From: a virus
DNA length: 64,000 bases
Virus record (IMG/VR): IMGVR_UViG_3300030107_002115
Coordinates: 1-64,000 of that record
Direction: 5' to 3' (one strand)
Shown: positions 15,948-49,476 of the stretch, piece after piece
How the letters are laid out: the number at the start of each line of letters is the position of its first letter
Position numbering within the stretch: position 1 is the first letter of the stretch
The notes under the pieces: model-generated
Database searches by the model: none
What the model was told of the DNA's origin: nothing
What the model saw: only the letters and a program-made list of their open reading frames with translations
Made by a program: the position numbers and the translations under genes

Positions 15948-16939
15948 TGCCTAAACAATCTATGTCAGATTTTCTTAAGCCACAGGCTACTACTCCTGTA
16001 TCTACTAATGTCCATAGTAATATAGATGACTTAATAATACAATCTAAGCTAGATGAGTTTGCACAAACTGGTGTAATGTATACAACACCCCTAGAGTATA
16101 AGGGTGGAGTAGATGATGTAGTAGCTAATATAGCTATGAATCCAATGATGACTTTAAAAAGTTTAGGAAGTATAGGTAAAAAATTACTACAAAAAACTGG
16201 TTTGCGTAATCCAATATATCATTTTACAAGAGGTGAGAAAGCTAGAGATATATTATCAGAAGGCACTATAAGGGGAACAGGGGAAATGTTTCCGGGGAAA
16301 CCTTTTTATAAAGACTCTAGAAAATATATAGATAAATTATTAAGCAAAGATAAAACAGGGTGGCTTGACCAAACAGATTTAAAATTTGTAGAACAATTTC
16401 CTAAGTCTCCTTCCGTTTCTATTACCAGAGACCCTAAATTTTTATCTAGACCTCATAAGCATGTAGGGACAGATGTTAGATTTGTTATGGATAGAGACGA
16501 GATGATAAAAAAGGGATTAAAGATAGAGCCATTTGCTGAAAAAGGTTTTGGAAAAGTCCATAGGACTTGGGATAAAGATAAATTTATAAGAATGAACCCT
16601 ATGTTTGAATTTGAAGAAAGAGTAAGAGGAAATATTCCTACTGAAAATATAAAAATGATAGACCTTATAAGGTTTTCACCAAATAACTTCCTTACAGACA
16701 TAAACAATCAAGATTTAATTAAAACATTAGTAAAATCTAACATTCCAAAAATAAAAAGTCAAACAGCCTACAATCAACTCCTAGATTTAAACAAAAGATT
16801 AACAAGTAAAAATTGGGAAGACAAAGTTAGTAAGCAAGGCGGTGTTCTACATATTGCAGACACTAGGGGGAATTTATTAAAGTATATAGATGAATTATTA
16901 AATACTCCTACTTATAAATTTGACCCATTTAAACGCTAA
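15947..16939 (+). CDS. Putative ADP-ribosyltransferase-fold protein, 330 aa
   Basis: After a disordered Thr/Ser-rich start comes NPIYHFTRGEKARDILSEG (about residue 88). It is followed by SPSVSITRDPKF (147-158), VRFVMDRDEMIKKG (167-180) and FEFEERVRGNIPTENIKMI (214-232). The order H-x-T, S-x-(T/S)RDP, RFVMD and E-x-x-ERV-x-x-x-IP resembles H-S/Y-E-type ADP-ribosyltransferases of the DarT-like group. That is my inference, with no search run. It overlaps the previous gene by one base and closes the virion operon, so the product may be packaged and delivered. The right-hand module lacks it. Its stop overlaps that of the convergent helicase gene. Confidence 0.55.
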   Translation: MPKQSMSDFLKPQATTPVSTNVHSNIDDLIIQSKLDEFAQTGVMYTTPLEYKGGVDDVVANIAMNPMMTLKSLGSIGKKLLQKTGLRNPIYHFTRGEKARDILSEGTIRGTGEMFPGKPFYKDSRKYIDKLLSKDKTGWLDQTDLKFVEQFPKSPSVSITRDPKFLSRPHKHVGTDVRFVMDRDEMIKKGLKIEPFAEKGFGKVHRTWDKDKFIRMNPMFEFEERVRGNIPTENIKMIDLIRFSPNNFLTDINNQDLIKTLVKSNIPKIKSQTAYNQLLDLNKRLTSKNWEDKVSKQGGVLHIADTRGNLLKYIDELLNTPTYKFDPFKR

Positions 16940-18267
16940 AAAGGATTAGGAGTTCCACTAACTGTATCTCCTCTTTTATTTGCCATAGCTACTGCATCCT
17001 GTTCTGTTTCTGTAACCAAACAACTATTACCATGATAACCTACCTCACAAGAATTAGTCTGTCCATATCTATTCTTAGCTACTATAAGTTCTAAGTAGCA
17101 ATCACTATTACCATCATCTCCATACCTAGATACCCAAGGATAATGAGAGAATACTACAATCTCTGCGTCTTGTTCTAAGTTACCAGACTCAGCAAGGTCA
17201 GATAACCTAGGCACTCTATCATTTCTATGTTCCATATTTCTATTCATTTGTGATACTAATACTACAGACATATCCTCAGCTTTAGCCAACCATTTATAAT
17301 TACGACTTACATCTCCTATCTTTAAACGCAGGTCTCTTCTATCTTGAGGTGGGTGTTCTATTAATCCTATATGGTCATCAATAACTACGTCTGGCTTAAT
17401 AGCTTTTATCTCTCTAAACGTATTCTCCATATCTCTTACATCATCAAACATAAACAACCTACCTTCGTATACTTCTTTTATTTTATCCATAGTTTCTTGT
17501 ATACTATCTTGGTCTAAGCTAATATTATTTCTAAGGTTTCTATATTGTAAGCTATCACTTTCCATAGCTAAAAACTTTTTCATCATCTCCGTATTAGGCA
17601 TCTCTCTATTAAACATTATTACTTTCTTACCTTGATGTACTAAATTCCTAGCCATATTTGCAGCTACAGTAGTCTTAGCATTTCCGGGTCTACCAGCTAT
17701 AATAGTTATCTCTCCTCTAGTCATACCTGTTATTACTCTATCTAGTTTAGGCAACCCTGTTTGTATTAATGTGGTTGAATTAAATATAGATTCTTTAGTC
17801 TCTTCAAGTAAAGCATTAACACTAAATATTTTATTAGGTTGTAATTTAATAATATTACCTATGGTAGTATGTGCATCTTCAAGTAACGCTTGAGTCTCTA
17901 CGCTATTATCGTTAATATCTTGAGAGATAGCAGACATTTGTCTATCTAACATTCTTCTAAGGTAATAATTATGCAACATTTTTGCATATGCAACTGCATG
18001 AGAAGGAGAAGTTACTTTCTCTAAAAATCCAGATATTTCATATACAACATGATAGCCTGTATTATTTAAATTAACTTTATCAGAGATAGTATTTAAATCT
18101 ATTTGCTTGTTTTCTTTATGCAGTTTTCTAATTGCAATCCAAACTTTTTTATTAAACTCTGAATAGAAAAAATCATCTGAATCAATCCAAGATAATACTT
18201 TATCTATTTGACTTGGGTCTTGTATAACGCAACCAAGTAATGCTTTTTCTAGTTCTACACTCTTCAT
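16936..18267 (-). CDS. dnaB: Replicative DNA helicase, DnaB family
   Basis: 443 residues, normal length for DnaB. The N-terminal domain starts ELEKALLGCVIQDPSQIDKV. The linker region is followed by the RecA-like core from about 160: TGLPKLDRVITGMTRGEITI. Walker A is GRPGNAKTT (about 190-198) and Walker B-like VVIDDHIGL (about 292-300). The later VVLVSQMNRNMEHR and LAESGNLEQDAE are also classical DnaB motifs. Role: unwinds DNA at the phage fork. It is the last gene of the minus-strand operon. No phage DNA polymerase or primase is visible, so host enzymes probably join it. Confidence 0.92.
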   Translation of the reverse strand: MKSVELEKALLGCVIQDPSQIDKVLSWIDSDDFFYSEFNKKVWIAIRKLHKENKQIDLNTISDKVNLNNTGYHVVYEISGFLEKVTSPSHAVAYAKMLHNYYLRRMLDRQMSAISQDINDNSVETQALLEDAHTTIGNIIKLQPNKIFSVNALLEETKESIFNSTTLIQTGLPKLDRVITGMTRGEITIIAGRPGNAKTTVAANMARNLVHQGKKVIMFNREMPNTEMMKKFLAMESDSLQYRNLRNNISLDQDSIQETMDKIKEVYEGRLFMFDDVRDMENTFREIKAIKPDVVIDDHIGLIEHPPQDRRDLRLKIGDVSRNYKWLAKAEDMSVVLVSQMNRNMEHRNDRVPRLSDLAESGNLEQDAEIVVFSHYPWVSRYGDDGNSDCYLELIVAKNRYGQTNSCEVGYHGNSCLVTETEQDAVAMANKRGDTVSGTPNPF

Positions 18268-18268
18268 T

Positions 18269-18634
18269 TTAATCCTTTAATTTTGGTGGTATTCTGTCTA
18301 AGCGTTTTCTTTCGTATTCATTTTTAAACTTTTGTTGTTTATATTCTTTTTCTATCATGCCACATAGATATGGTATATTATATCCTCTATCAGCGTATCC
18401 TTTATTAATAAAAACCTGTATCATTTTCATCACTATGTTTTCATCTACATTTTCTATCTTAACAAAAAAAGCACACTTATCTGTATCTTTTAAGTTCCAT
18501 TTATCACTTACTAAGTTAAATAATTTTTCAATATTACTTGTAAGTTTTGGAGAAACACTAAGCATAAGATTTTTAAGTTTTGCAGATACTTTTTTCTTAG
18601 GCATAGTGCTATTACACATAGGACATTTAGCCAT
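18269..18634 (-). CDS. Hypothetical zinc-binding protein next to DnaB
   Basis: I start it at MAKCPMCNSTMPKKK, 121 residues. A GTG six codons upstream (MIVECV...) is also possible. It has one CxxC pair at the N-terminus. A helical body follows, with KGYADRGYNIPYLCGMIEKEYK and a basic end. The final part resembles C-termini of phage replisome organisers or helicase-loading proteins, and the gene directly precedes DnaB (one base gap). Loader function is a suggestion only. Only one CxxC pair is obvious, so zinc binding would need dimerisation or distant ligands. Confidence 0.65.
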   Translation of the reverse strand: MAKCPMCNSTMPKKKVSAKLKNLMLSVSPKLTSNIEKLFNLVSDKWNLKDTDKCAFFVKIENVDENIVMKMIQVFINKGYADRGYNIPYLCGMIEKEYKQQKFKNEYERKRLDRIPPKLKD

Positions 18635-18983
18635 TACACATTCCACAATCACCTTTTTCTAAAGGAACACCTGTATAAACTGAAGGTGGTAGATAAATAC
18701 TTTTTCTAGGATTTTTTTGCCTACCAAATATACTTCTTTTAAATGGTGTAAATGCTTTTTTACATTTGCTACATCTTAGAGGTGGATTAGTACTTGCTTC
18801 ATATTTTGGGCTAGATTTTACATATGTCTTGTAATGCTCTGCACCTTCTGATGTTTCTGTTACGCAATCCCAATCAATCCAATCGTTTCCTAAGTAATAT
18901 TTCAATGAATCTACTTTAGCTTTGTTTTTTAAAGCGTATTCAAACTCACGCTGTCTTGTTTTAAACACATAATCTCTACTCAT
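18627..18983 (-). CDS. Hypothetical zinc-motif protein, paralogue A
   Basis: 118 residues. The core LKYYLGNDWIDWDCVTETSEGAEHY is followed by a CSKCKK pair and a terminal CGMC pair about 40 residues later. That makes a likely split four-Cys zinc ribbon. The next upstream gene (19004-19399) has the same architecture, so this is a tandem duplication. The stop overlaps the start region of the downstream gene by eight bases. No family recognised. The acidic WDC motif and the ribbon might suggest a DNA- or protein-recognition role. Confidence 0.65.
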   Translation of the reverse strand: MSRDYVFKTRQREFEYALKNKAKVDSLKYYLGNDWIDWDCVTETSEGAEHYKTYVKSSPKYEASTNPPLRCSKCKKAFTPFKRSIFGRQKNPRKSIYLPPSVYTGVPLEKGDCGMCNG

Positions 18984-19003: not shown

Positions 19004-19399
19004 TTAGGTATTACACATTTCACAATCTTTGTATTCTATCCTAATCTTATTAAACACATCATCTGGAAGATACTTATTTGTATTTACCGCTCCAGAGCCA
19101 CTAATAAATCTAGACCAAGCCTTTGTGCATTTCTTACATCTATATGGAGGGTAAAAAGTATGAGCTTTATTTTTCTTTGTTGCGTTATCGCTTATTGTAT
19201 ACTTTAAATAATGTTCTCTTCTTGGGCTTATCTCACTTACACAATCCCAATCAATAAAATCATCTCCAAGGTAATTGACCAAAGAATCTAGCTTGGCTAA
19301 GTTTTGATACACATGATTAAATTCAAACTTACTATTAATCGTATCTGCTCGCTTGCCTTTTTTTATCTCTATTTTAAACATCTCATAGTTGCTCTTCAC
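19004..19399 (-). CDS. Hypothetical zinc-motif protein, paralogue B
   Basis: 131 residues. The core LDSLVNYLGDDFIDWDCVSE...REHYLKY matches the neighbouring 118-aa paralogue. The same pair of CxxC motifs follows (CKKCTK about 105; CEMC at the C-terminal end). The region between them differs completely in sequence but keeps the LPDDVF/LPPSVY pattern. The ATG overlaps the stop of the upstream nuclease gene (ATGA). Function unknown; conservation of IDWDCV between copies marks the functional core. Confidence 0.65.
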   Translation of the reverse strand: MKSNYEMFKIEIKKGKRADTINSKFEFNHVYQNLAKLDSLVNYLGDDFIDWDCVSEISPRREHYLKYTISDNATKKNKAHTFYPPYRCKKCTKAWSRFISGSGAVNTNKYLPDDVFNKIRIEYKDCEMCNT

Positions 19400-24186: not shown

Positions 24187-24407
24187 TCTAATCCCTCTTC
24201 TTCTTTGTTTTTATCCATAGCTTCTACTACTATATCTCTATCTTCTACTATCTTTTGTAGATATATACCACTTTCTTCTAGCAAACCAAGTTCATCTTCT
24301 ATAAATCCGTAAGTATCTCTACGAACTCCTCTAGAATCTGGATATACTGCTAGCTCTACAAGTATAGTTTCGTAGTCTGCATCTATATCAAACGATTTAT
24401 TATTCAT
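24174..24407 (-). CDS. Hypothetical 77-aa acidic protein
   Basis: MNNKSFDIDADYETILVELA then YPDSRGVRRDTYGFIEDELG and a Glu-rich helical end. Strongly acidic and soluble, no Cys. The start overlaps the stop of the first amidoligase by eight bases, so it is probably co-translated with it. It could be an accessory of the amidoligase cluster, but nothing in the sequence says so directly. Confidence 0.55.
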   Translation of the reverse strand: MNNKSFDIDADYETILVELAVYPDSRGVRRDTYGFIEDELGLLEESGIYLQKIVEDRDIVVEAMDKNKEEEGLEWEK

Positions 24408-25590
24408 TATTACTTCCTTCTATTGTGAACTTTTCAGTTCGTTTATTTACATATTCTAATAACTCAGAACCTATAACATATTTTAATTGTCTTTGAATAT
24501 TAGAATCTTTATACATAAATTTATTTAGTTTTGTTGGAGTTTTTTCTTTACTTAAATATATTCCTTTTTCTATAATAGCATTACATATTTTAATCCAATT
24601 TAAAATTTTAGTTTTATTAAGTGTACCACTATGATGCCTAAACTCTATAGTTCCGTGATAATACCTAGCGTGTAAGTTTAGACCATAATATCTACAATCA
24701 TTATATTTTTCTGTACTAGGATAATAACCATCATAGTAATAATCTACTAATGATTGTTCACAATTATCTTTTGCTATGCTTTTTAAATTATCCATACTAA
24801 TAGGAAACTTTTTACACCAATTAGATTTTCTTCTAGAAGGTGGCATCATATTAAATATAGCAGGTTCTAATACTTTATAAACAATACCTATAAATGCTAT
24901 TTCTCTAGCAGATAAATCTAGAGAATTAAAATGTATATGTAAACCACAAGACCTATTGACTCTAGCTTTATAGTCAAATGCCCAATGTGTTAAGTTTGTA
25001 ATGTTATTATATAGAGAATCTCCATTTGCAGGAGTAGAGACCATCTCTGTTCCACTATATCCTTCGTCTGAATGTATAGAACCATCGTGGCAATGAGTCC
25101 AACCACTTGGATTATCTATAGTTTGTAAATCGCTAGGATATTGACACTCTGATTCTATACCTACATATCTTTTAATATCTAATTTGTTAAAAGTTGTAGA
25201 GGTTCTAGTGTTAGAAGGTAATGATAAATTATTATTAAAATTATCTACGCAATTACCTTGACATTCTGAATCGCAATTTTCACATAGAAGCTCTTCTCTA
25301 TCGTCATTCCAATACATATAATCTCTATCTCCAAGATGGTCGCATCTCTCACAATGAGAATAATACTCACCAAAACAACCATCGCAATATGGTGTATCAC
25401 TAGGACTCCAATATACTTCATCTATATATATTTCATCTGTACAAGCATCACATACATAATAATCATCTTGACATACATCACATCTATCACTATCATTTAG
25501 TTCTGCTACCTCTTCTCCACAATCATTACAACAAAGAAGCTCTACTGGAGGTGGTTCTAGGTTATTGTTTACTTGTCTTGTTTCTGGCAT
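24400..25590 (-). CDS. Amidoligase (COOH-NH2 ligase) with N-terminal zinc-finger array
   Basis: 396 residues. Residues 19-112 hold about eight CxxC units (CNDC, CDVC, CDAC, CDGC, CERC, CENC). From about 140 comes the amidoligase core: VGIESECQYP, SGWTHCHDGSI, GTEMVSTP, CGLHIHFNS, LNLHARYYHGTIEFRHHSGT. The Glu, His and Arg placement (E-x-E; H-x-H-F-N; E-F-R-H-H) matches the Amidoligase_2 family, related in fold to glutamine synthetase and gamma-glutamyl-cysteine ligase. Family role: ATP-dependent formation of an amide or isopeptide bond. Substrate unknown. It lies two genes from a glutamine amidotransferase and the larger paralogue at 27017-28966. Confidence 0.82.
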   Translation of the reverse strand: MPETRQVNNNLEPPPVELLCCNDCGEEVAELNDSDRCDVCQDDYYVCDACTDEIYIDEVYWSPSDTPYCDGCFGEYYSHCERCDHLGDRDYMYWNDDREELLCENCDSECQGNCVDNFNNNLSLPSNTRTSTTFNKLDIKRYVGIESECQYPSDLQTIDNPSGWTHCHDGSIHSDEGYSGTEMVSTPANGDSLYNNITNLTHWAFDYKARVNRSCGLHIHFNSLDLSAREIAFIGIVYKVLEPAIFNMMPPSRRKSNWCKKFPISMDNLKSIAKDNCEQSLVDYYYDGYYPSTEKYNDCRYYGLNLHARYYHGTIEFRHHSGTLNKTKILNWIKICNAIIEKGIYLSKEKTPTKLNKFMYKDSNIQRQLKYVIGSELLEYVNKRTEKFTIEGSNNE

Positions 25591-25592
25591 AA

Positions 25593-25892
25593 TTATACTC
25601 CTATATTAGTAGTTATAACTCCTACAATTAATCCATTAATTACCTTTAGCCAATTAAGTTTCTTTAAAGCATTATATATATCTACTTCTAAAGTATCACT
25701 ATTTTTATCTATGTCTACTTTAATAGATGATAAATTATCTACTTGATTTATAAGAAAATCTAAGTATTCATCATAAGAATAATTAGCTAGAAAAGGATTT
25801 TTCTTTGCTCTTTTATATAAAGTCTCAATTACATATTTCTTAGACTTTAACATTATAGAGTTAGGAAATCCTACTAGAATTACCTTTTTCAT
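25593..25892 (-). CDS. Hypothetical protein inside the amidoligase cluster, 99 aa
   Basis: MKKVILVGFPNSIMLKSKKY is followed by a tyrosine-rich helical segment (LANYSYDEYLDFLINQVDNL) and a hydrophobic C-terminus, LKVINGLIVGVITTNIGV. It overlaps the amidotransferase 3' end by 32 bases and ends two bases before the amidoligase, so all three are one transcription unit. No domain recognised. Its fixed position between the two enzymes makes it a candidate subunit or substrate carrier, though it lacks an obvious carrier-protein Ser or C-terminal Gly-Gly. Confidence 0.6.
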   Translation of the reverse strand: MKKVILVGFPNSIMLKSKKYVIETLYKRAKKNPFLANYSYDEYLDFLINQVDNLSSIKVDIDKNSDTLEVDIYNALKKLNWLKVINGLIVGVITTNIGV

Positions 25893-26997
25893 TTTTATCT
25901 CCTTCTGTTAATAGTTTAGGGGGTTCAATACCTAAAGAATTAAAATCACATTGTATACATATCCATTTATTTATATCATCATCATAATCTAATTCATCAT
26001 CTCTAGTCTCTTCGTAACAAACCTCACAATAGTTTACATTATCTTCTAATAACATCTTACTAGCAGGACTCATAGAAGAATAATCCTCATCTGGCATATG
26101 CTCTGCACAATAATTGTCTACATAAGTATAGTCTCCACAAACTTGACAATAGTTTTTTGTGTAGCTATCATTATATGATTGAGTATCTCTATCACAACTA
26201 CCATAGTTATTATAATATCCATAATGCCCACCATAATAACTACCAGATATATAGTTGTTTGTTTGACTAATAGTTTCAAACTTCTCTATATCAAATATAG
26301 GACACCTAGCAAACTTATTAGTATTATAACTATATATTTTATCTTTAGAGACATTCTTTATTTTCAATACTAGACCTGCGTCTATCATAGCATCTTCCAT
26401 TATACTTCTTGTACTAGCAAAGAATAATACCTTAGCTTTTTTCCAATAGGAAACTACCATAGGTCTACCACTTTCCCTAGCTAGATGTAGAGTAGTATTA
26501 TTCTCTTTTGCCCAAGCTACTGCAAAGTCTCCATTTATATTTTCAAACGCTTTAGATTTATCTAATCTATTAAGAGATTGAAATATAACTTCTGAGTCTA
26601 CTTGAGGAATAGTCTTACCTAAACTTCTAGCTACTTGATTATAATTATATATAACTCCATTATGTATACCTACAACTTCACCTATTGTAAATGGGTGTGC
26701 ATTATTTACTACTTTTGCTCCCGTAGTTGCAAATCTAGTATGCCCTAGTACAATAGATGTTTTTCTATCTATTTTATCTATAACATTTTGCCATTCATTT
26801 GTTCTAGTTAATGTTACAGAATCAGTTAGTGTCTTGTAGGTATATCTATCTACAGGATTCATAATAGAGAAGCCTGTACTATCAGTACCTCTCCTAGATG
26901 ATTCTTCTGTAAGATATGTAAATGTACGCTTAAGAATTTCTAGCTGATGGTCTGACTGACTATTGCTAGTCTTAGCGAATCCAAATATACCACACAT
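25861..26997 (-). CDS. Class-II glutamine amidotransferase with C-terminal zinc fingers
   Basis: 378 residues. Catalytic Cys2 is exposed after Met removal in MCGIFGFAKT. LGHTRFATTG (about 94), NAHPFTIGEVVGIHNGVIYN (about 106-126), VDSEVIFQSL and NGDFAVAW are the N-terminal-nucleophile glutaminase signatures. After about residue 270 come two CxxC blocks (CQVCGD...C, CEVCYEE...CIQC). They resemble the fingers of the adjacent amidoligases. There is no synthase domain, so the released ammonia must be used by a partner. The amidoligases on both sides are the obvious acceptors (inference). Role in the cell unknown. Confidence 0.85.
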   Translation of the reverse strand: MCGIFGFAKTSNSQSDHQLEILKRTFTYLTEESSRRGTDSTGFSIMNPVDRYTYKTLTDSVTLTRTNEWQNVIDKIDRKTSIVLGHTRFATTGAKVVNNAHPFTIGEVVGIHNGVIYNYNQVARSLGKTIPQVDSEVIFQSLNRLDKSKAFENINGDFAVAWAKENNTTLHLARESGRPMVVSYWKKAKVLFFASTRSIMEDAMIDAGLVLKIKNVSKDKIYSYNTNKFARCPIFDIEKFETISQTNNYISGSYYGGHYGYYNNYGSCDRDTQSYNDSYTKNYCQVCGDYTYVDNYCAEHMPDEDYSSMSPASKMLLEDNVNYCEVCYEETRDDELDYDDDINKWICIQCDFNSLGIEPPKLLTEGDKNEKGNSSRIS

Positions 26998-27016
26998 ATA
27001 CTATATCTCCTTTTGT

Positions 27017-28966
27017 TTATTGGTTGTCTATTTGTCTATTTGTTATATACTCACAGGCTTCACTACCACCTATTATATTTATTAATTTAATAGGTTCTAT
27101 TTTAAAGAACCTGCCTTCATTGTATATAATTCTATTTATTTTCTTACCTCTATTTGTAGATAAGTTCGCAGTCTCTTTTGTAGACTGCATTATATTATAT
27201 AAAAATTCTATCCATTTCATTATAGGTCTTGATTCTTCTGTACCTTCGTGGTGTCTAAATTCTATTGTGCCGTGATAAAATCTAGCGTGTATATTTGTAC
27301 CTATATATCTAGCCGTATTGTATCTATTTGTATTTATATCTGTTTCATTCCAATTTATATAATAAAATTTAGAGAAATCTACTATGTCTTTACATTTTAT
27401 TATATTATTATAATTAGCTATAAATCTTTTAGCATAACTAGAATCTCTCCTGTCTCTAGGTAATGACCTTGTTAATTCACTATCTATCTTAGACATAATT
27501 AAAGATATAGCTTGTAATTCTTTAAACTTAAAGTCTCTAGCATTAAAATGTATATGTACTCCACAAGTACTATCAACAAAATTACCTAAATCGTTATGAT
27601 GGTCTTCTAATTCATCTACACTTCTTTTTATACTATCTCCTACAAGTGGTGCAACGTGTTTAAATTCTACTCCTCCGTCACTTAGAGAGCCATCTGATAC
27701 AGCTTTCCAAGCTGTAGGGATATCAACATTGTCTAAATAGTGTTCACAATCATCATAATCTGTAATCACTTCACTCTCTACAGAACAATGTCTATTAATT
27801 GTATCATTTTTATTTACTTCTATAACATAAGGTGCTCTATATCTATTTTGTGTACTATACAATAAATTATTTAATTTTTGCTTACTACAACTATTGCATA
27901 GACACATATCAAAACAATATAGATATTCATTATCTAGTTTTTTCCTACAAGATGAAATATATTTCATTCTATTGTCTTTTGACTTAGATAAACATATTTC
28001 TAAGTCTAATATTGTATAATTACCACAATGATTACAAGATTTATATAATGCACTTGTGCATTCAGTACAAATATTTTTTATACCACTATCTTTCACATAA
28101 TTTAATACTTCTGAACGTATTCTATTTTCTCCGTCTACATTATTTATATATTTAAAGTTATATTCCTCTAAGCACATATCACAATCTACTTTTAATTTAT
28201 CATAACAAGTATTACAATATGTATGCTCATTAACTCTACGAGATGTCATTTCCCTAGGGACATATAATAGATTACATTTATCACAACAATACATCTCTCT
28301 TATTCTTCCATAAGAGAATGAACCTTTCATTTCTTTTTCTATCATTTTAATTCTTGTATGACTTAAACTAAAGAATCTAGAATAACTATAATTAGAATTA
28401 ATAGGCTTTACCCATTCTATTTTAGCTAAATTCTCTACAAGTGGCTTAGACTCATATTTCCAACTTAGACAGAAACTAGCTATACTATATGCACCTGTTG
28501 TATCTATAGCGTTTTTATTAATATTTTGTAGAATCTCACCCATCTCTGGGTTATCTTTATAATTAGGATATCTTTTATGTAGTGGATTATAGAACAATAC
28601 ATTATTACCATTAATTTTCGTAGAAAATATAGGTATATAAGATTGAAATAATATATCTTGACTTCTTGCTACATATATTCTCTTAGTAATTTTATGTTGT
28701 AGAATAAATCTATGTGGTGCAACATCTCTCCCATATCCTTCTATAAAGAAATCTGATATTACTTTTTTAATTGTAAACATTCTACCATATACACTATAAT
28801 AATTCTCTATTTCACTATATAGATAATTATATAAAGTTTTAGTATAATCTTTATTTATAAGTTTTGCTAGATTATTTTTATCTATATCCTCCCAAGAAAT
28901 ATGTGTATAACTTACATCAAAACACATTCTAGGATTTAAAACTAGAACTTCATTTGAATATCGCAT
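27017..28966 (-). CDS. Large amidoligase paralogue with long zinc-rich N-terminal region
   Basis: 649 residues. The first 210 have no Cys pairs and look like a separate beta/alpha domain. Residues 224-370 hold four to five zinc groups (CCDKC, CNTCY, CDMC, CTEC, CNHCG, CNSC). The amidoligase core follows: CSVESEVITDYDDC, AWKAVSDGSLSDGG, VEFKHVAP, CGVHIHFNARDF, RRDSSYAKRF, TNIHARFYHGTIEFRHHEGT. Every motif of the 396-aa paralogue is kept, so both should be catalytic. It is first of the four-gene amidoligase segment. Two ligases plus a glutaminase imply either two steps or a heteromer. Confidence 0.82.
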   Translation of the reverse strand: MRYSNEVLVLNPRMCFDVSYTHISWEDIDKNNLAKLINKDYTKTLYNYLYSEIENYYSVYGRMFTIKKVISDFFIEGYGRDVAPHRFILQHKITKRIYVARSQDILFQSYIPIFSTKINGNNVLFYNPLHKRYPNYKDNPEMGEILQNINKNAIDTTGAYSIASFCLSWKYESKPLVENLAKIEWVKPINSNYSYSRFFSLSHTRIKMIEKEMKGSFSYGRIREMYCCDKCNLLYVPREMTSRRVNEHTYCNTCYDKLKVDCDMCLEEYNFKYINNVDGENRIRSEVLNYVKDSGIKNICTECTSALYKSCNHCGNYTILDLEICLSKSKDNRMKYISSCRKKLDNEYLYCFDMCLCNSCSKQKLNNLLYSTQNRYRAPYVIEVNKNDTINRHCSVESEVITDYDDCEHYLDNVDIPTAWKAVSDGSLSDGGVEFKHVAPLVGDSIKRSVDELEDHHNDLGNFVDSTCGVHIHFNARDFKFKELQAISLIMSKIDSELTRSLPRDRRDSSYAKRFIANYNNIIKCKDIVDFSKFYYINWNETDINTNRYNTARYIGTNIHARFYHGTIEFRHHEGTEESRPIMKWIEFLYNIMQSTKETANLSTNRGKKINRIIYNEGRFFKIEPIKLINIIGGSEACEYITNRQIDNQ

Positions 28967-29096
28967 CTCTAACCTCTTTAGCTATATAAATTATATAATC
29001 TTTATATATATAGACAACACCACTAGATATTATACTTAATATACTAAGGTGTGTCTCTCCACAAGAGCCTAGTAGATGATGTATTATCTCTTTCAT
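28950..29096 (-). CDS. Possible 48-aa protein upstream of the large amidoligase
   Basis: GGAGTAGAAA precedes the ATG, and the stop overlaps the amidoligase start by 17 bases. MKEIIHHLLGSCGETHLSIL is followed by a hydrophobic helix (SIISSGVVYIYKDYIIYIA) and a charged end. The ribosome site has the same form (AGGAGTAGAAAATG) as its neighbours at 29350 and 29488. That argues it is a true gene of this micro-gene series. Confidence 0.5.
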   Translation of the reverse strand: MKEIIHHLLGSCGETHLSILSIISSGVVYIYKDYIIYIAKEVRDAIFK

Positions 29097-29113
29097 TTTC
29101 TACTCCTTATTTA

Positions 29114-29350
29114 TTATCCTGCACTCCAATATACATTCCCTTTATATTCTACAAATTCTTTCATCTCTATATCTGAATTTACTGCTTTTATAACTCCCAT
29201 TCTAACAAGTGTCTCTCTAGAATTTTTAAATTTCTTAGGTTTATAGAATTGAAAATTACCATAGTCTTTAGGTAGGTAATAAGCAACTACCCATTTTTTA
29301 TCATCTATATACATTTGCTTTATACTATAATTCCAATCTACATTACTCAT
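29114..29350 (-). CDS. Hypothetical 78-aa protein
   Basis: MSNVDWNYSIKQMYIDDKKW is followed by VVAYYLPKDYGNFQFYKPKK and a helical part ending FVEYKGNVYWSAG. Aromatic-rich and mixed alpha/beta, without Cys. A clear AGGAGTAGAAA ribosome site lies upstream. Unknown early protein. Confidence 0.6.
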   Translation of the reverse strand: MSNVDWNYSIKQMYIDDKKWVVAYYLPKDYGNFQFYKPKKFKNSRETLVRMGVIKAVNSDIEMKEFVEYKGNVYWSAG

Positions 29351-29353
29351 TTT

Positions 29354-29488
29354 CTACTCCTTATATCCAGAATCTATTTTTTCTTTTATTATTTCTTTGC
29401 AGAAATCTTTAATTTCTACAATCTCTCCATAGTATAATATATCTCTAATTAGATACATAATAGCTTTTATTAAAGCATTTCTATCCAT
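29354..29488 (-). CDS. 44-aa early micro-protein
   Basis: AGGAGTAGAGA precedes the ATG at 29488. MDRNALIKAIMYLIRDILYY continues through GEIVEIKDFCKEIIKEKIDS to GYKE. It is a single amphipathic helix or helix pair. Its stop (TAG) lies within the ribosome site of the next gene (AAGGAGTAG), a compact arrangement that suggests translational coupling. Function unknown. Confidence 0.5.
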   Translation of the reverse strand: MDRNALIKAIMYLIRDILYYGEIVEIKDFCKEIIKEKIDSGYKE

Positions 29489-29508
29489 TCTCTACTCCTT
29501 TTATTATT

Positions 29509-29634
29509 CTATAAATTTTTCATTATATAAAATACAAAGTATATTAACATCATTACAATCCATAATGCTATAAATGTTTCTTGTACTTTCTCTAAAAAGT
29601 CTATCATTCTATCTATTCTATTTTTATCTAACAT
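29509..29634 (-). CDS. 41-aa single-pass membrane micro-protein
   Basis: GGGGTGG lies upstream of the ATG at 29634. MLDKNRIDRMIDFLEKVQET is a charged helix. FIALWIVMMLIYFVFYIM is a clear membrane segment, and NL ends the chain. N-in/C-out would be expected from charge. It is the first gene after the terminator hairpin at 29651-29692. Function unknown. Confidence 0.5.
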   Translation of the reverse strand: MLDKNRIDRMIDFLEKVQETFIALWIVMMLIYFVFYIMKNL

Positions 29635-29650
29635 AACCACCCCTATATAT

Positions 29651-29692
29651 AAAAAAAGTAGTAGAATATAAAATCTCTACTACTCTTTTTTT
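29651..29692 (-). terminator. Intrinsic terminator hairpin inside the early operon
   Basis: AGTAGTAG (29657-29664) pairs with CTACTACT (29677-29684) around a 12-base loop. It is flanked by seven A on the left and seven T on the right, so it can act in both directions. On the minus strand the hairpin ends in TTTTTTT. It follows the 67-aa gene and separates the promoter-proximal early genes from the amidoligase and recombination genes, so read-through or a second promoter must feed the latter. Confidence 0.7.
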
Positions 29693-29707
29693 GTTAATAA
29701 ATATTTT

Positions 29708-29911
29708 TTAGTATTCGTAAATACCTTCTATTTCCTCAAGTTCTATCTTTTTAGATAGAGGTTTTAAATCTTTATCATATTTTAAGCTAGGGAACAAATC
29801 TTTTGTAGCTTGTTGAATTGTACGCAATTTGTGCCAGACTCTTATTTTATCTTTAAATTTGTCTAATGTGTCATTTTTTCTACGCATTTGCAAACTATAT
29901 ATATATTTCAT
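29708..29911 (-). CDS. Hypothetical 67-aa basic protein
   Basis: MKYIYSLQMRRKNDTLDKFK may start at either the first or the ninth residue (MRRKND). The body KIRVWHKLRTIQQATKDLFP is helical and basic; the C-terminus is acidic. Helix followed by an acidic tail might be a small nucleic-acid or RNA-polymerase binder, but nothing specific is seen. It is the last gene before the hairpin at 29651-29692. Confidence 0.55.
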   Translation of the reverse strand: MKYIYSLQMRRKNDTLDKFKDKIRVWHKLRTIQQATKDLFPSLKYDKDLKPLSKKIELEEIEGIYEY

Positions 29912-29931
29912 ATATTATCCTTTTTCTATTA

Positions 29932-30423
29932 TTACCAAGTTCTTTTGTCGATACCTCGTCTAAATCCAATTTTCTTAGTAGGTAAGTTTCTTAGAACAAA
30001 TCTCGCTCTATCTCGTTTATGTCTACGCTTGTCTAGTTCTATTTCTTTAGCTTGTTCTATCTCTGTAAGCGTTTGCCCTATGGTTAATTTTTTGTAGATT
30101 GTTTTCGTGTCTAAGTCTCTAACTTCTATTATGTATCCTAATTTATTTTCCTTAGAGCGTACAATTTCTATAATGTTCCAAAGCTCTATCTGCGTACTAG
30201 GTTCTAGTCTTATATTTTTCTTATCTTTTATAATCTCTAGTATATAATTATTAGACTCTATATTTTTTATATATCTAATTATTATAGTACCCTTTAATTT
30301 TATATTGCCGTATCTGTAGAGATTAAAAGGATTACTATCTTTATAATTATGTAGAAAAATATCTCTCCTAGAAGGAAGCCCGTTAGAACTTCCTTCTATT
30401 CTATGGTTTTTATTCTCTATCAT
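29932..30423 (-). CDS. Hypothetical 163-aa protein
   Basis: MIENKNHRIEGSSNGLPSRR starts a polar N-terminus. A beta-rich middle follows (IKLKGTIIIRYIKNIESNNY; IIEVRDLDTKTIYKKLTIGQ). The C-terminal helix is very Arg/Lys-rich (EIELDKRRHKRDRARFVLRN). The basic tail suggests nucleic-acid contact. The ATG overlaps the preceding stop. No family recognised. Confidence 0.55.
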   Translation of the reverse strand: MIENKNHRIEGSSNGLPSRRDIFLHNYKDSNPFNLYRYGNIKLKGTIIIRYIKNIESNNYILEIIKDKKNIRLEPSTQIELWNIIEIVRSKENKLGYIIEVRDLDTKTIYKKLTIGQTLTEIEQAKEIELDKRRHKRDRARFVLRNLPTKKIGFRRGIDKRTW

Positions 30424-30671
30424 TACTTACTTATATTAATCGTAACTTTTCCGATTGTTTGACCTAGTGGTAAATTATCCTCCCAAGCTATTTTGTTTTC
30501 TTTAACTACAGATTCGAACTTCTCCCAAGCCTTTTTTATTTCATTTGGTGCATAATGCATTTTAGGAGGCGTAGATATTTTTCCTTCTGCAATCATTTTG
30601 CTTTGAGCTTCTTTAGTTAGATAACCAGCCTCTACCATTTTATTTGAATTTTCAAAAGATAATAATTTCAT
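30423..30671 (-). CDS. Hypothetical 82-aa protein, first of its early segment
   Basis: MKLLSFENSNKMVEAGYLTK continues to a helical middle with KMHYAPNEIKKAWEKFESVV and a short beta end, GQTIGKVTINISK. Ribosome site AAAAGGACATAATAA. It starts just below the 450-bp non-coding stretch containing the palindromic repeats, so its expression may be controlled from there. Function unknown. Confidence 0.6.
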   Translation of the reverse strand: MKLLSFENSNKMVEAGYLTKEAQSKMIAEGKISTPPKMHYAPNEIKKAWEKFESVVKENKIAWEDNLPLGQTIGKVTINISK

Positions 30672-30862
30672 TTTATTATGTCCTTTTTTTCTATGCTTTG
30701 AACTTCTACAGAGACATTTTTTCTATATTTGAAGTTCTCTACATGGTTGTTTTTTTTATGTCTCATGCTGACAATTTACAAATAAAAAGTAATATGAGTC
30801 AATAAAAAAATACATATATATTAAGATAAATGTTAATGATAGGTCTATACGAAATAATAATG

Positions 30863-30939
30863 AATAAAGCAAGTGTTATTTTTAAGATATGTATAAAATG
30901 TGCTGTACATCACACTTAAAAATTTAGTGCTTGTTTATT
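30863..30939. repeat. Imperfect inverted repeat
   Basis: AATAAAGCAAGTGTTATTTTTAAG-type left arm (starting 30863) faces a right arm, CTTAAAAATTTAGTGCTTGTTTATT (30915-30939), with several mismatches. The 29-base centre contains a smaller GTG...CAC pairing. It could form a long stem in RNA from either strand or mark a protein-binding site. No promoter is obvious inside it. Confidence 0.35.
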
Positions 30940-30974
30940 AACTTGAACGGCGTTAAATTTCGGGCTTTTTAATA

Positions 30975-31045
30975 TTTTCGACTGCTTAGTCGAGTTTTCG
31001 ACTACTAATTCGAATTTTCAACTGAATAGTCGAATTTCAACTAGG
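30975..31045. repeat. Three 20-bp palindromic iterons plus a partial fourth
   Basis: Units at 30975-30994, 30995-31014 and 31015-31034 abut with an exact 20-bp period. Each reads TTTTC(G/A)ACT, a four-to-six base centre, then (T/A)(G/T)TCGA(A/G), so each is itself an inverted repeat (CGACT...AGTCG). A fourth begins TTTCAACT at 31035 and decays after 31045. A 20-bp period puts successive sites on one face of the helix (about two turns). Such arrays bind initiator, partition or repressor proteins. Confidence 0.7.
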
Positions 31046-31123
31046 AACGGGGGGGCGACCAATTCGCGAATATAAGACTACACACATTGTAGCCCTATTT
31101 TTTTAGAATGGTATGTTTATTTA

Positions 31124-31354
31124 CTAAGTCCTAATGGCTGCTATACTACTTACTGGGCCAAACATCTCGCATAATTTGTGTATATCTTTGAAATGGTAGT
31201 GTGGTTGCTTAATATGGTGTTCTGCTTTGTCACTAAAGTATACTGCTTGTTCAGCTATATAGAATGTTCCTTCCTCTACATAATGCCATTCTTTTGAATT
31301 TACTAACAATACGCTCTTTACCTCACCTACAGGCAATAATATACTCGGTCTCAC
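31124..31354 (-). CDS. Hypothetical 76-aa protein, early operon
   Basis: MRPSILLPVGEVKSVLLVNS is followed by KEWHYVEEGTFYIAEQAVYF and a His-rich part (KAEHHIKQPHYHFKDIHKLC). Six His and one Cys within 25 residues might bind a metal, though no known motif fits. The ATG overlaps the upstream stop (ATGA). Unknown. Confidence 0.55.
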   Translation of the reverse strand: MRPSILLPVGEVKSVLLVNSKEWHYVEEGTFYIAEQAVYFSDKAEHHIKQPHYHFKDIHKLCEMFGPVSSIAAIRT

Positions 31355-31557
31355 TTCTTTTTCCCCTTTTTCTCTTTCAATTTTACAATTTCCACTACTC
31401 TATCCGTAAACAGATTGATGTGATTTGCACAAACTTCAGCGTCTTTTCGCTCAATAAACCGTTTTATTGGGTAATCTGGGTGTTTTCGATTGATAAATGC
31501 TCTTCCCCTAATCATATACCAAACTTCTTCCCGATTAGTTTGTATTATTCCGTACAA
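31351..31557 (-). CDS. Hypothetical 68-aa protein, first gene of the minus operon
   Basis: MYGIIQTNREEVWYMIRGRA; an internal start at MIRGRAF is possible. The body FINRKHPDYPIKRFIERKDA and AEVCANHINLFTDRVVEIVK is alpha/beta, with a Lys-rich end. It is the promoter-proximal gene of the minus-strand operon, immediately downstream of the divergent control region. Early host-takeover function is likely by position only. Confidence 0.55.
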   Translation of the reverse strand: MYGIIQTNREEVWYMIRGRAFINRKHPDYPIKRFIERKDAEVCANHINLFTDRVVEIVKLKEKKGKKK

Positions 31558-31652
31558 ATCTTAACCTTTTTCATATAATGAAGTTACATATTATCACATA
31601 AGCTTGCAAGGCTTTTTTATATTTTTATTAGTAGAATTTTTTTTCTTTTTGT

Positions 31653-31672
31653 TATAATACGCTAGTATTATA
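31653..31672. promoter_or_regulatory. Divergent palindromic promoter/operator
   Basis: TATAATAC, a four-base GCTA spacer, and GTATTATA form an exact 8-bp inverted repeat. It places a consensus -10 hexamer TATAAT on each strand within the gap between the minus operon (first gene 31557) and the plus operon (31822). No good TTGACA box accompanies either, so it may need an activator. A protein bound to the palindrome would cover both -10 boxes. Confidence 0.5.
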
Positions 31673-31785
31673 TTTTTTCTTTTTTTATTTGTTTAAACTC
31701 TGGGGCTAAAAAGGCCCTATAACTTACAAACAAAACTAATAAATTGCAAGATAAAAATAAAAATCAATAAAAAAAAATTTTTTTC

Positions 31786-31815
31786 TTGTGAAAGTACCTA
31801 TTTTACTAGTATATT
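31786..31815 (+). promoter_or_regulatory. Candidate promoter for the late/plus operon
   Basis: TTGTGA (31786-31791), 18-bp spacer, TATATT (31810-31815), preceded by an A/T-rich upstream run. The predicted transcript start, six to seven bases downstream, coincides with the ATG at 31822, where no ribosome site is visible. The first mRNA could therefore be leaderless. Similar boxes occur at 36091-36119. Confidence 0.4.
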
Positions 31816-31821
31816 TTGGGC

Positions 31822-32064
31822 ATGAATAGAGGGAATATAAAGACAATAGCGAGAAATTACTGTGCTAATTACAATGTGGGAAAGTGTTTAGGGTGTATGT
31901 TTACCAGAGAGACAGGTGTTTTAAGCATGAAATTAGATAGTAAGCTTGCTGGGAAAGAATGTTCAGTAGAAAAGGGTTGTGACTACTTTGATGCAATAGT
32001 AGTACCCGGTATATTGGATATTAGGGATAGAAACTCAATAAATAAAAACATAGGAGAGAAATAA
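31822..32064 (+). CDS. Cys-rich putative zinc protein, first gene of plus operon
   Basis: 80 residues from ATG at 31822 (an in-frame TTG at 31816 is possible). NYCANYNVGKCLGCMFTRET gives three Cys in a C-x(7)-C-x2-C pattern, and later KECSVEKGCDYF adds two, enough for one zinc or Fe-S site. It overlaps the next ATG by one base (TAATG). Function unknown; a small metal-binding protein next to a metalloprotease-like gene. Confidence 0.6.
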   Translation: MNRGNIKTIARNYCANYNVGKCLGCMFTRETGVLSMKLDSKLAGKECSVEKGCDYFDAIVVPGILDIRDRNSINKNIGEK

Positions 32065-32354
32065 TGAAAATAGCTATAGGTGGACACGACTATACGGTTA
32101 ATTTAGTTGATAGCAAGACAACAAGTGATGGTAAAATGTTACTTGGTAATCACGATGCTAGGACTTGTACTATTAATTTAGATAGGGAAATGTCTACAAC
32201 TAGAACGAGAGAGACCTTTTTACATGAAGTTATTCATGTTATACTAACTAATGCAGGTATGCAGAACCATGATGAAGTGGTTATTGATGCTACCGCAAAT
32301 GGATTATTACAACTAGGAGTAGGTGAATTTTTGTGGAAGAAATTAAAAAAGTAA
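32064..32354 (+). CDS. Small zinc metalloprotease-like protein (HExxH)
   Basis: 96 residues. A beta-rich N-terminal part (MKIAIGGHDYTVNLVDSK) is followed by FLHEVIHVILTNAG, the HExxH zincin motif, at about 54-58. A helix containing HDEVVIDATANGLLQL follows, with a distal Glu/Asp that could be the third ligand. This layout is like minimal ImmA/IrrE or SprT-type domains. Substrate unknown; it may process a phage or host regulator. The motif is direct evidence, the role is inference. Confidence 0.7.
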   Translation: MKIAIGGHDYTVNLVDSKTTSDGKMLLGNHDARTCTINLDREMSTTRTRETFLHEVIHVILTNAGMQNHDEVVIDATANGLLQLGVGEFLWKKLKK

Positions 32355-32440
32355 TAAAGTTAATTTATTACTACATAGAGGCAAAGTTTATATTATTTGT
32401 GATATATCTACTCTCCATGCGTAAGGGGGTATCTAAATGA
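32333..32440 (+). CDS. Possible 35-aa membrane micro-protein
   Basis: GTG at 32333 inside the protease 3' end, with GGAGTAGG upstream. The product MEEIKKVIKLIYYYIEAKFI runs into a hydrophobic helix, LFVIYLLSM, and ends RKGVSK. The stop overlaps the following ATG (ATGA). It exactly bridges the gap between two confident genes, the main support. Confidence 0.4.
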   Translation: MEEIKKVIKLIYYYIEAKFILFVIYLLSMRKGVSK

Positions 32441-33195
32441 AGCGTGCTATTGTTACCCCCGATAAGCATTTCCCATTTGAAGACAAAAAAGCTATAAAGG
32501 TTTTATGTAAGGCGATTGAATTAGTAAAACCAGACATATATATAGATTTAGGTGATGTTGGAGAATGGGAATCAGTTTCGCATTGGCAATGGAAGAAAAA
32601 GAAGCGTCCTCCCCTTGAATATCAGCTTCCTTTTGTCCATAAAGATATAAAAGATGTGAATAAAGGTATGGATACCATTGACGCTTCGTTAAATAGGGCA
32701 AAAACGAAGGAAAAACATTTTGTCGAAGGTAACCATGACGATTGGTTAAATCGCTTTGTAGACGAAAATCCATACCTTAGTGATACAATGCGAGTTGAAA
32801 AGGCTTTAAAGCTTAAGGAGCGTGGTTATAAATATCATAAAATAGGTAAATATTTAAAAATTGGTAAGATTAATTTTTATCATGGTCATCATTTTGCTGG
32901 GGTTACCCATACAAGAAACCATTTATTAAGATTAGGTGGTAATGTAATGTATGGACATCATCACGACATACAACAATCTTCCATTACTCATATAGATGGA
33001 GTTAAAAGTGCTTGGAGTATTGGTTGTTTAAAGGATATGTCTGACGAAGCTAATGAATGGTTAGGAAATAGAAGACATAATTGGCAGCATGCTTTTGCTA
33101 TTGTAGACTTTCATAAGAATGGAAACTTCAATGTTACTGTTCATCAGATAGTAAATGGAGTTAGTACAGTAGACGGAAAGGTATTAAAGGCATAG
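32437..33195 (+). CDS. Calcineurin-like metallophosphoesterase
   Basis: 252 residues. Motifs in order: TPDKH (residues 7-11, the D-x-H box), YIDLGDVGEWE (G-D), FVEGNHDDWL (G-N-H-D), FYHGHHFAG and MYGHHHDIQQ (G-H-x-H). That is the full metal-binding set of the calcineurin-like superfamily. It hydrolyses phosphodiesters or phosphomonoesters; in phages often found near terminase genes, as here. Exact substrate unknown (nucleic acid ends or a nucleotide second messenger are options). Complete, no truncation. Confidence 0.88.
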   Translation: MKRAIVTPDKHFPFEDKKAIKVLCKAIELVKPDIYIDLGDVGEWESVSHWQWKKKKRPPLEYQLPFVHKDIKDVNKGMDTIDASLNRAKTKEKHFVEGNHDDWLNRFVDENPYLSDTMRVEKALKLKERGYKYHKIGKYLKIGKINFYHGHHFAGVTHTRNHLLRLGGNVMYGHHHDIQQSSITHIDGVKSAWSIGCLKDMSDEANEWLGNRRHNWQHAFAIVDFHKNGNFNVTVHQIVNGVSTVDGKVLKA

Positions 33196-33959
33196 TGAAG
33201 ACCAGAAAAATAAAAAAAATAGAATACCCATTATTTAAAGATGAAAAAGAGTTTAAATACTATATGCCAAATAAGTATCTTACTAAGAATTGGCGTGATG
33301 GAGAAGAAGGAGATTGGGTATTAACAGATGATGGTCAAGTTTGTATGGTTATTAAAAGGGGTTCGCTTTCTCACGGTACTTCTAAAACAATTAAACAAGA
33401 CTATGTTAGAACAGTTATAGGTTCTTTTTTATGTAAACCTTCTGTAAAGATGGGAGGTAGAATGAGAAAGAATATGTATTCTTTTGGTAGTAGGGATATA
33501 ACTCCAAAAGAAAGACAAAAAGAAAGGAAAAAGCCTACTAATTCAGAATTTCTTTTTGCTAAGTATGTAGCAAAAGGAGATGATATAGTAGATGCGTTTA
33601 TTAAGGCTTTTCCAACAAACAATAGAAAGTATGCTAAAAGAGAAGCTGGTGTACTTTTAAGGACGAATAGGGTAAAAAGTTTGGTAAGAGAAGAAATAGA
33701 TAAGCTCATGAATGAAGCAGAGATAACTCCTCTGTACATTTTAGAGAAAATGAAAGATATCATTGAGTCAGAAGGTTCTAGGGATAGTGATAAAGTTTCC
33801 TTACTTAAAGAACTTGTTAGTATAGCAGGTATGAAAGATACAGAAAAGAAGTCGGAATCTGTTACTGTGTTCCAAGGATTTTCACCAGAACAGCTCAATG
33901 CTATAGGTGGAAACAATGTTAAGAAGCTTGCAAAAGCTGAAAGAGAAATAAAAAAATGA
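33195..33959 (+). CDS. terS: Terminase small subunit (putative)
   Basis: 254 residues from a GTG overlapping the preceding stop (TAGTG). An N-terminal 100-residue extension (WVLTDDGQVCMVIKRG...) precedes the small-terminase core. The core is FAKYVAKGDDIVDAFIKAFP, then AGVLLRTNRVKSLVREEIDK and a helical oligomerisation segment (ITPLYILEKMKDIIE). The pattern of an HTH-like domain followed by long helices is that of phage TerS. Role: recognises the packaging site and recruits the large subunit. The large subunit follows after two short genes. Confidence 0.78.
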   Translation: MKTRKIKKIEYPLFKDEKEFKYYMPNKYLTKNWRDGEEGDWVLTDDGQVCMVIKRGSLSHGTSKTIKQDYVRTVIGSFLCKPSVKMGGRMRKNMYSFGSRDITPKERQKERKKPTNSEFLFAKYVAKGDDIVDAFIKAFPTNNRKYAKREAGVLLRTNRVKSLVREEIDKLMNEAEITPLYILEKMKDIIESEGSRDSDKVSLLKELVSIAGMKDTEKKSESVTVFQGFSPEQLNAIGGNNVKKLAKAEREIKK

Positions 33960-34159
33960 ACCTCTATGAAATAGTAATGGAAGTTCTCAAAGCAGCTAAG
34001 GAAAAAGGAGTATCCCTTGAAAATGATTGGGAAATAGAAGATATAGCTACTGAAATATATGATATGTTTTACAGTAGTGAGATTATTGGAAGTTATATAA
34101 GTAATGGATACATAGAAGACCTTAAAGACTATTGGGAAGATAATAATTTAAATGATTAA
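33956..34159 (+). CDS. Hypothetical 67-aa acidic protein
   Basis: MNLYEIVMEVLKAAKEKGVS then LENDWEIEDIATEIYDMFYS and an acidic end. An all-helical, strongly negative protein. The start overlaps the TerS stop (ATGA) and the end overlaps the next gene by eight bases. Sitting between the two terminase genes, it may be a packaging accessory, but no family is recognised. Confidence 0.6.
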   Translation: MNLYEIVMEVLKAAKEKGVSLENDWEIEDIATEIYDMFYSSEIIGSYISNGYIEDLKDYWEDNNLND

Positions 34160-34526
34160 TAAGTTAGCCGTATACGGAACATTAAGAAATGGTAAAAGAA
34201 AAACATATAAGATTAATGGTTTTAGCCTTGTTTACCCCGGGCATTATCGTTACCCTGCTGCTATTATCAACAATAATTCTACTGGAATGGTTATTGAGTT
34301 GTTAGATGTAGAGCAAGAAGATATAAATGGATATGATATATATGAAAGTGTTGATTCTGGATTGTACGATAGAAGAAAAGTAACCGTTTATGAAAATGAT
34401 AAAGAAATTAACGCTTGGATGTATACAGCTGGGCCACTATTATTACAACATAAAACAGTATTTGAGTTAGTTCCAGAGCAGGATTGGTTATCAAAAAAGT
34501 CGAAGAAAAAAAGAATTTTAACATAA
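34152..34526 (+). CDS. Gamma-glutamylcyclotransferase-like (GGCT/AIG2) protein
   Basis: 124 residues. LAVYGTLRNGKRKTYKING is the diagnostic Y-G-T-L-R-x-G loop. It is followed by VYPGHYRYPAAI, GMVIELLDVEQEDINGYDIY and a Tyr-rich stretch (GLYDRRKVTVYEND), then AWMYTAG, all typical of the GGCT fold. The family releases or rearranges gamma-glutamyl-amines to 5-oxoproline plus amine. Described amidoligase systems often include GGCT-like partners, making this a likely fourth member of the amidoligase system at 24.4-29 kb. The catalytic Glu is most likely in VIELLD. Confidence 0.75.
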   Translation: MINKLAVYGTLRNGKRKTYKINGFSLVYPGHYRYPAAIINNNSTGMVIELLDVEQEDINGYDIYESVDSGLYDRRKVTVYENDKEINAWMYTAGPLLLQHKTVFELVPEQDWLSKKSKKKRILT

Positions 34527-49139: not shown

Positions 49140-49149
49140 GAGAATCAGA

Positions 49150-49476
49150 ATGAACTGGTCAGAATACAAAGCAAAGAAAGGTAAAACAGCCGACTTTGCA
49201 AAAAAAGAAGTAGTAACTAAAAAAGCTGTTAAAGAGGTTAAAGACTCTGATGGCGTAGTAGTAAAAAAAGCAGAAGCAGAAGAAAAAAGAGCATACATAG
49301 CTATGGTTCAAAAGGCTTGGAATTCATCAACTGGAGAACAGCTAGATGACCGAGAGCAAGAATGGTCACTATCTGAACTTGAAAATGAAAAGAAAAGATA
49401 TGATGATAATATGACTAGAGCAAAAGCACAAAGCGATGGATTAGCAGAGGCGATTGCAGACTTTAAAAAACTTTAA
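49150..49476 (+). CDS. Conserved protein downstream of tail fibre (second copy)
   Basis: 108 residues, paralogue of 1594-1920 and nearly identical in protein and DNA over the first 40 codons, with later substitutions. Same ten-base spacing and ribosome site after the fibre stop. The high DNA identity here makes this segment the most likely place for homologous recombination or assembly switching between the two module types. Possible fibre-assembly role by position. Confidence 0.8.
   Translation: MNWSEYKAKKGKTADFAKKEVVTKKAVKEVKDSDGVVVKKAEAEEKRAYIAMVQKAWNSSTGEQLDDREQEWSLSELENEKKRYDDNMTRAKAQSDGLAEAIADFKKL

Follow-up and report, generated by a model that had tools for sequence, protein, structure and literature searches.

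A conserved viral amidoligase and glutaminase cassette with a small partner protein and a predicted role in amide formation

Gene products of the cassette

The first 64,000 nucleotides of the IMG/VR virus record IMGVR_UViG_3300030107_002115 (71,480 bases in total), hereafter the window, carry on the minus strand a compact four-gene operon (24400-28966) that we interpret as a putative amide-forming cassette. It comprises, in order of transcription, the amidoligase AmL2 (27017-28966), the stand-alone class-II glutamine amidotransferase (GATase) GAT (25861-26997), the 99-residue protein p99 (25593-25892), and a second amidoligase, AmL1 (24400-25590). The genes are tightly packed, with a gap of 19 nt between AmL2 and GAT, an overlap of 32 nt between GAT and p99, and a gap of at most 2 nt between p99 and AmL1. 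A gamma-glutamylcyclotransferase-like protein (GGCT, of the GGCT/GGACT type) is encoded farther away on the plus strand (34152-34526). The first-pass annotation, made from the letters alone, had recognized two amidoligases, a class-II GATase, and a GGCT-like protein; Pfam and PHROGs matches bear this out, and the boundaries that it gave for all five open reading frames are exact.

Both ligases belong to the Pfam family Amidoligase_2 (PF12224; AmL1, E=1.4e-26, 94.3 bits; AmL2, E=1.8e-18, 67.7 bits; curated cut-off 22), and the PHROGs assignments agree with those of Pfam for the cassette proteins and for GGCT. The catalytic domain of AmL1 (396 residues in total), as delimited by the PF12224 match, is encoded at 24574-25179, while that of AmL2 (649 residues in total), matched by PF12224 and phrog_2443, covers residues ~391-605 (27152-27796). 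In alignments of 30 sequences for each ligase, E146, E148, D169, E182, H218, H220, R253, E316, R318, and H320 of AmL1 are invariant, as are E397, E399, H471, H473, R506, E569, R571, and H573 of AmL2; the two proteins retain the same kind of acidic, histidine, arginine, and asparagine residues. The putative catalytic residues are conserved in both ligases, and this conservation predicts that both are active. The C-terminal two thirds of the AmL1 model (pLDDT 86.7) match YbdK (Z 12.4, 232 residues, root-mean-square deviation 4.4), and also glutamine synthetase (GS; Z 11.9) and glutamate-cysteine ligase (GCS family; Z 11.6). The catalytic domain of AmL1 is, in the model, of the GS/GCS-like fold, which can tentatively be extended to AmL2 from its sequence. 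AmL1 shares this fold with YbdK and glutamate-cysteine ligase at only 13% and 10% identity, respectively, and differs from them by an added zinc-finger array and an obligate GATase partner.

The array of AmL1 occupies residues ~20-120 (25231-25533) and includes eight invariant cysteines (C47, C50, C69, C72, C80, C83, C103, and C106). Its profile matches the LIM domains of PINCH in the PDB (E=6e-5), and two bacterial relatives return hits with the LIM family PF00412. The cysteine-rich zinc array of AmL2 lies at residues 228-360 (27887-28285), where C228, C251, C262, C311, C314, C357, and C360 are invariant (n=30 sequences), and the AmL2 profile did not match any PDB sequence. With seven CxxC/H pairs in each ligase and four in GAT, against none or one in the other phage amidoligases sampled, the large zinc-finger arrays noted at first pass hold up, and their LIM-like character in AmL1 comes as an addition. 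A literature search for amidoligases with LIM domains found none reported.

GAT (378 residues) matches GATase_6 (PF13522; 8.6e-20) and GATase_7 (9.5e-13) and aligns with GlmS, PurF, and AsnB. It displays the hallmarks of the class-II (N-terminal nucleophile, Ntn) enzymes, namely a cysteine nucleophile directly after Met1 and the arginine, Asn-Gly, and aspartate motifs (Cys2, R88, N113, G114, and D134, invariant among 26 sequences). Its C-terminal zinc-binding region (residues 302-350; 25948-26094) holds four further invariant cysteines in the same alignment, C324, C327, C347, and C350. With its catalytic residues intact, GAT is predicted to be an active class-II glutaminase.

Conservation of the block, its small partner, and GGCT

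The block is shared by a group of uncultured phages. A search based on GAT returned 57 viral loci, 55 of them close. In all 55 close loci, down to 36% GAT identity, the order AmL2, GAT, p99, and AmL1 holds for every part present on the contig. A p99 profile search returned 61 IMG/VR loci, of which two lie on contigs that begin inside p99. AmL1 follows p99 in 61 of the 61 loci, and GAT precedes it in all 59 that can be tested. Being conserved in ~55 further contigs, the block is not a chance arrangement. AmL2 is present in 55 of the 58 testable loci; the three others (L192, L198, and L199) show no AmL2-like gene upstream. Because AmL2 can be missing while the other three genes stay together, the core of the cassette is GAT-p99-AmL1, and AmL2 is, to judge from these sequences, a duplicate that can be lost. 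Missing profile matches, lost catalytic residues, and genes never found together, which the first-pass annotation had named as fatal to its proposal, were all looked for and none was found. Of note, IMGVR_UViG_3300030101_002855 (63,940 bases; L009 and L010), which like the window's record exceeds one genome, has GGCT twice and carries two unequally diverged cassettes, which lie 43.6 kb apart.

Regarding p99, the first-pass annotation had listed it as a protein without known family, and indeed it has no Pfam match. Its model (pLDDT 81.7) runs from a strand through three helices to a second strand and ends in a hydrophobic helix of low confidence; in 32 of 33 members, no other stretch is as hydrophobic as this C-terminal tail. 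Fold searches returned no usable match (best VIA Z 2.5; best BFVD E 0.042), and neither PDB sequences nor GenBank phages (plain tblastn) matched p99, which is also absent from 84,980 species genomes when sought with profile-derived patterns. No relative of p99 was detected beyond these phages. A counterpart was sought in the 180-220-residue protein of the known phage cassettes and rejected (hhalign probability 0.3%). Since p99 is small and always stands beside the ligases, it might be imagined as their substrate, a peptide or tag of ribosomal origin to be modified or conjugated in the manner of Pup. The closest p99 proteins are 83-85% alike, more than the enzymes are, and PafA figures among the weaker fold matches of AmL1. 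However, p99 is predicted to be folded, and its last residues vary (GV, GIA, AIS, or NIT), without the GGQ/GGE end of Pup-type tags and without a diglycine end, which makes such a role very unlikely. p99 would rather serve as an adaptor or recruiting subunit.

GGCT matches the Pfam family GGACT (PF06094; E=7.2e-11, 43.1 bits, cut-off 22.8), and its Y8-G9-T10-L11-R12 loop and putative catalytic glutamate E65 are conserved in 64 sequences. It is located 5.2 kb from the cassette on the opposite strand, within the packaging module, flanked by the terminase subunits and with an overlap at the listed TerL start; those relatives of TerL whose contigs are long enough also have it between TerS and TerL. 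The first-pass annotation had taken all these genes as one system. This holds insofar as the cassette is conserved and GGCT co-occurs with it, but GGCT stands outside the operon, in the plus-strand packaging module. GGCT was found in 18 of the 18 cassette records of at least 36 kb and in 27 of 32 overall, every miss falling on a contig shorter than 34 kb. The phages concerned are relatives, and both features are present in those that can be tested, so that co-inheritance and a functional link would leave the same pattern. Amidoligase and GGCT are, though, near neighbours in the oyster Zobellviridae, Bacillus 031MP004, Vibrio 172P1, and Geobacillus GR1 phages, which gives the link independent support. 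A functional link between GGCT and the cassette is therefore likely, although plain co-inheritance may account for the co-occurrence.

GGCT, together with ligase folds of the gamma-glutamylcysteine ligase kind, would also suit a small-molecule metabolism in which gamma-glutamyl amides or nitrogen compounds are made or salvaged. This has been claimed for Phage-ZRK32, which has a GATase, an amidoligase, a glutathione synthase, and a GGCT, and which, when added, made a Pseudomonas grow more with nitrate or ammonium (PMC10945688). The passages of that study consulted describe no single-gene test, and finger arrays and p99 would be unusual companions for enzymes of this sort; we hold such a metabolic role to be quite unlikely.

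Relatives in phages, bacteria, and mobile elements

The combination of GATase, amidoligase, and GGCT is a known one. A peptidoglycan modification cassette made of a GGCT, a GATase, two ligases, and an ATP-grasp enzyme has been described in phages (PMC5498523; PMC11945000); phiEco32, LUZ24, tf, CW02, RIO-1, and PSA-HP1 carry it (PMC5498523, PMC3890496), and its enzymes are also present in UFV-P2 (PMC3890496). The prediction of such cassettes dates from 2009, and many phages carry one, with a function proposed in peptidoglycan modification or in superinfection exclusion, the latter by Iyer et al. 2009 as cited in PMC10580990 (PMC5498523; PMC11945000). The peptidoglycan role is itself a prediction in these papers, and we found no report of the bond that is made or of its site in the literature on phage amidoligase/GATase cassettes. 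The first-pass annotation had suggested an amide-linked modification: an amide-forming system is indeed the natural reading of the families, residues, and co-occurrence, but the combination had already been published as a putative phage cassette.

The cassette of the window resembles those of phiEco32 and CW02 in its class-II GATase beside a PF12224 amidoligase, in the presence of a GGCT in the genome, and in its replication-gene setting. It differs in that the amidoligase is duplicated and finger-armed, p99 is added, and GGCT is relocated to the packaging module. The COOH-NH2 ligase of the phiEco32 type (PF14395) is absent from 23 cassette records and present in three of three controls, whereas a search for the ATP-grasp enzyme with PF14243 (R2K_3 type) found none here but matched only one of two control phages. 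A tree built from 128 catalytic domains places AmL1 beside AmL2, with the seven amidoligases of published-type cassettes as sister to the two (support 87/91; L200, L202, and L203 are the loci of that type in this analysis); 28 remote rows, including most finger-bearing ones from Firmicutes, were left out since their domain could not be excised. Nine AmL2 of more distant phages fall with AmL1 and apart from the other AmL2, though the support is modest; when and how often duplication took place is therefore unsure. On this tree, the cassette is related by descent to the phiEco32/LUZ24/CW02 type but has a different gene set: the kind of cassette is known, and the variant with p99 and a duplicated, finger-armed amidoligase is new. 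Beyond the first-pass annotation, p99 thus emerges as an obligate part of the core, AmL2 as a duplicate that can be lost, GGCT as lying outside the operon, and the fingers as LIM-like.

A profile scan of species genomes returned 80 loci. In these bacterial genomes, a GATase lies directly downstream of 28 of the 33 testable amidoligases that carry a zinc array, against two of 39 without it, the counts being of related sequences and not of independent events. Most of the finger-bearing bacterial amidoligases are found in gut Firmicutes. Pairs from gut Firmicutes and Omnitrophota (L214-L216, L259, L273, and L286) combine, as here, a zinc array, a PF12224 domain, and an adjacent class-II GATase, but they are devoid of p99 and AmL2, and the ligase precedes the GATase, in contrast with the GAT, p99, AmL1 order of the phages. 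The best full-length matches of AmL1 are Omnitrophota contigs (28-30%). The one annotated among them, L214, encodes a type IV coupling protein, a TrbC pilin, a Replic_Relax protein, and RadC; the finger-bearing pair therefore seems to travel on conjugative elements as well. Plasmid searches gave three remote amidoligase matches and GATase matches mostly annotated as GlmS.

Several bacterial loci deserve a separate mention. L259, L273, and L286, from gut Firmicutes, share a unit of a ~95-119-residue protein, a zinc-finger amidoligase, and a GATase; the small protein is a DUF960 in L259, where it lies upstream of the amidoligase, and in L286, and a resolvase follows downstream in L259 and others, so that the unit is apparently a small chromosomal island. 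A Clostridia metagenome-assembled genome (MAG) holds a zinc-finger amidoligase and a GATase in a single open frame of 723 residues (L257:1674-3845). As a natural fusion it is doubtful, because the GATase cysteine would be internal whereas class-II enzymes use an N-terminal one; a lost stop or a MAG sequence error is equally likely. Lastly, a Brachyspira MAG (L285:2610-7926) presents three amidoligase-like genes followed by a GGCT-like frame, with no GATase.

LIM domains mediate protein-protein contacts, and here arrays stand on both ligases, LIM-like in AmL1. Together with the occurrence on conjugative elements, this makes a protein target the main rival to a wall target: the arrays would recognize a host or virion protein, the ligases would turn its carboxyl side chains into amides or attach amino acids to it, and GGCT would act as editor, resulting in host takeover or a neutralized defence. 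The closest full-length relatives sit on Omnitrophota conjugative elements, where a change of the wall is less obviously useful, and modification of host proteins has been put forward as a role of phage peptide ligases (PMC4431377). However, no protein target is encoded nearby, the sister cassettes lack arrays, and PADLOC gave no match, though its library covers defence and not counter-defence proteins. We regard protein modification as unlikely.

As for its surroundings, the cassette is located among replication and recombination genes, with an exonuclease-like gene and a DnaB helicase gene downstream on the same strand. This neighbourhood, and the ability of zinc modules to bind DNA, could suggest an amide synthase acting on phage bases, but no known hypermodification enzyme was recognized among the window proteins scanned or beside the bacterial relatives scanned, and we hold DNA modification to be very improbable. 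Scans for Rfam families and tRNAs gave no match, and a promoter scan scored the real sequence no higher than shuffles. Elsewhere in the window, the neighbouring minus-strand frames 18627-18983 and 19004-19399 (44% mutual identity) represent a tandem duplication, and a 252-residue protein adjoining TerS (32437-33195), metallophosphoesterase-like by eye but without Pfam match, is kept in the TerL relatives. The record itself seemingly contains ~1.5 genome units from two related phages, its tail and early genes being doubled at 29-88% protein identity (1-7900 and 46212-54705; DnaB at 16936-18267 and 65484-66923). A comparison of its two late/early junctions found no long common sequence; the doubling seems to reflect either a chimeric assembly or a genuine joined molecule, and the cassette lies well within one unit.

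Predicted function of the cassette

The simplest reading of the cassette is an amide synthase, because a stand-alone glutaminase belongs to an obligate set with a GS-fold ligase. We propose that it is glutamine-dependent and ATP-driven and that its likeliest target is a cell-envelope peptide, for example a peptidoglycan precursor, a proposal that we favour while granting it slightly less than an even chance. It would be expressed probably ahead of the virion genes, because it is located with replication and recombination genes. GAT would hydrolyse glutamine and pass the ammonia to AmL1, which, using ATP, would activate a carboxylate and convert it to an amide. As a diverged paralogue, AmL2 would act on a second carboxylate or attach another kind of amine. 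For the LIM-like arrays, the most likely role is to keep the enzymes in one assembly or to bind the target, and p99, with its conserved hydrophobic tail, would most likely be the obligate adaptor that takes the complex to where its substrate lies, perhaps the membrane. Gamma-glutamyl by-products would be removed or edited by GGCT. The infected cell would end up with a changed wall or surface, in line with proposals for the related cassettes. Kinship with the published peptidoglycan modification cassette is our reason for favouring a cell-envelope peptide, although naming any target is speculative.

This proposal draws on the conserved residues of the ligases and glutaminase, the GS/GCS-like fold, the inseparable core, the overlapping or near-abutting genes, the pairing with GATases in bacteria, the kinship of the cassettes, and the precedent of GatD/MurT. 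The latter is an experimentally known two-subunit, glutamine-dependent amidase of the wall precursor lipid II (PMC3266927), with separate glutaminase and ATP-dependent ligase subunits. It is a functional precedent only, since GatD belongs to class I of the GATases and MurT is homologous to Mur ligases, in contrast with the class-II GATase and GS-like ligase found here. Several points weigh on the other side. Substrate, product, and complex are predictions only, as is the cell-wall role of the sister cassettes; the GATase and the amidoligase could act sequentially and not jointly; the bacterial pairs do without p99; and the hydropathy of the p99 tail is only borderline for a membrane helix. A bolder extension, which we consider distinctly improbable, would make GAT-p99-AmL1 a three-component amidating complex with p99 as its essential recruiting subunit, and the finger-armed pair a device in general use among phages, conjugative elements, resolvase-linked islands, and thus mobile elements at large, for the covalent amidation of one host target.

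The three-gene core, its extra subunit, and the chromosomal relatives together offer a small set for reconstitution. If the target is a wall precursor, the cassette would provide a wall modification made by a phage; if it is a protein, it would represent a new kind of host takeover.

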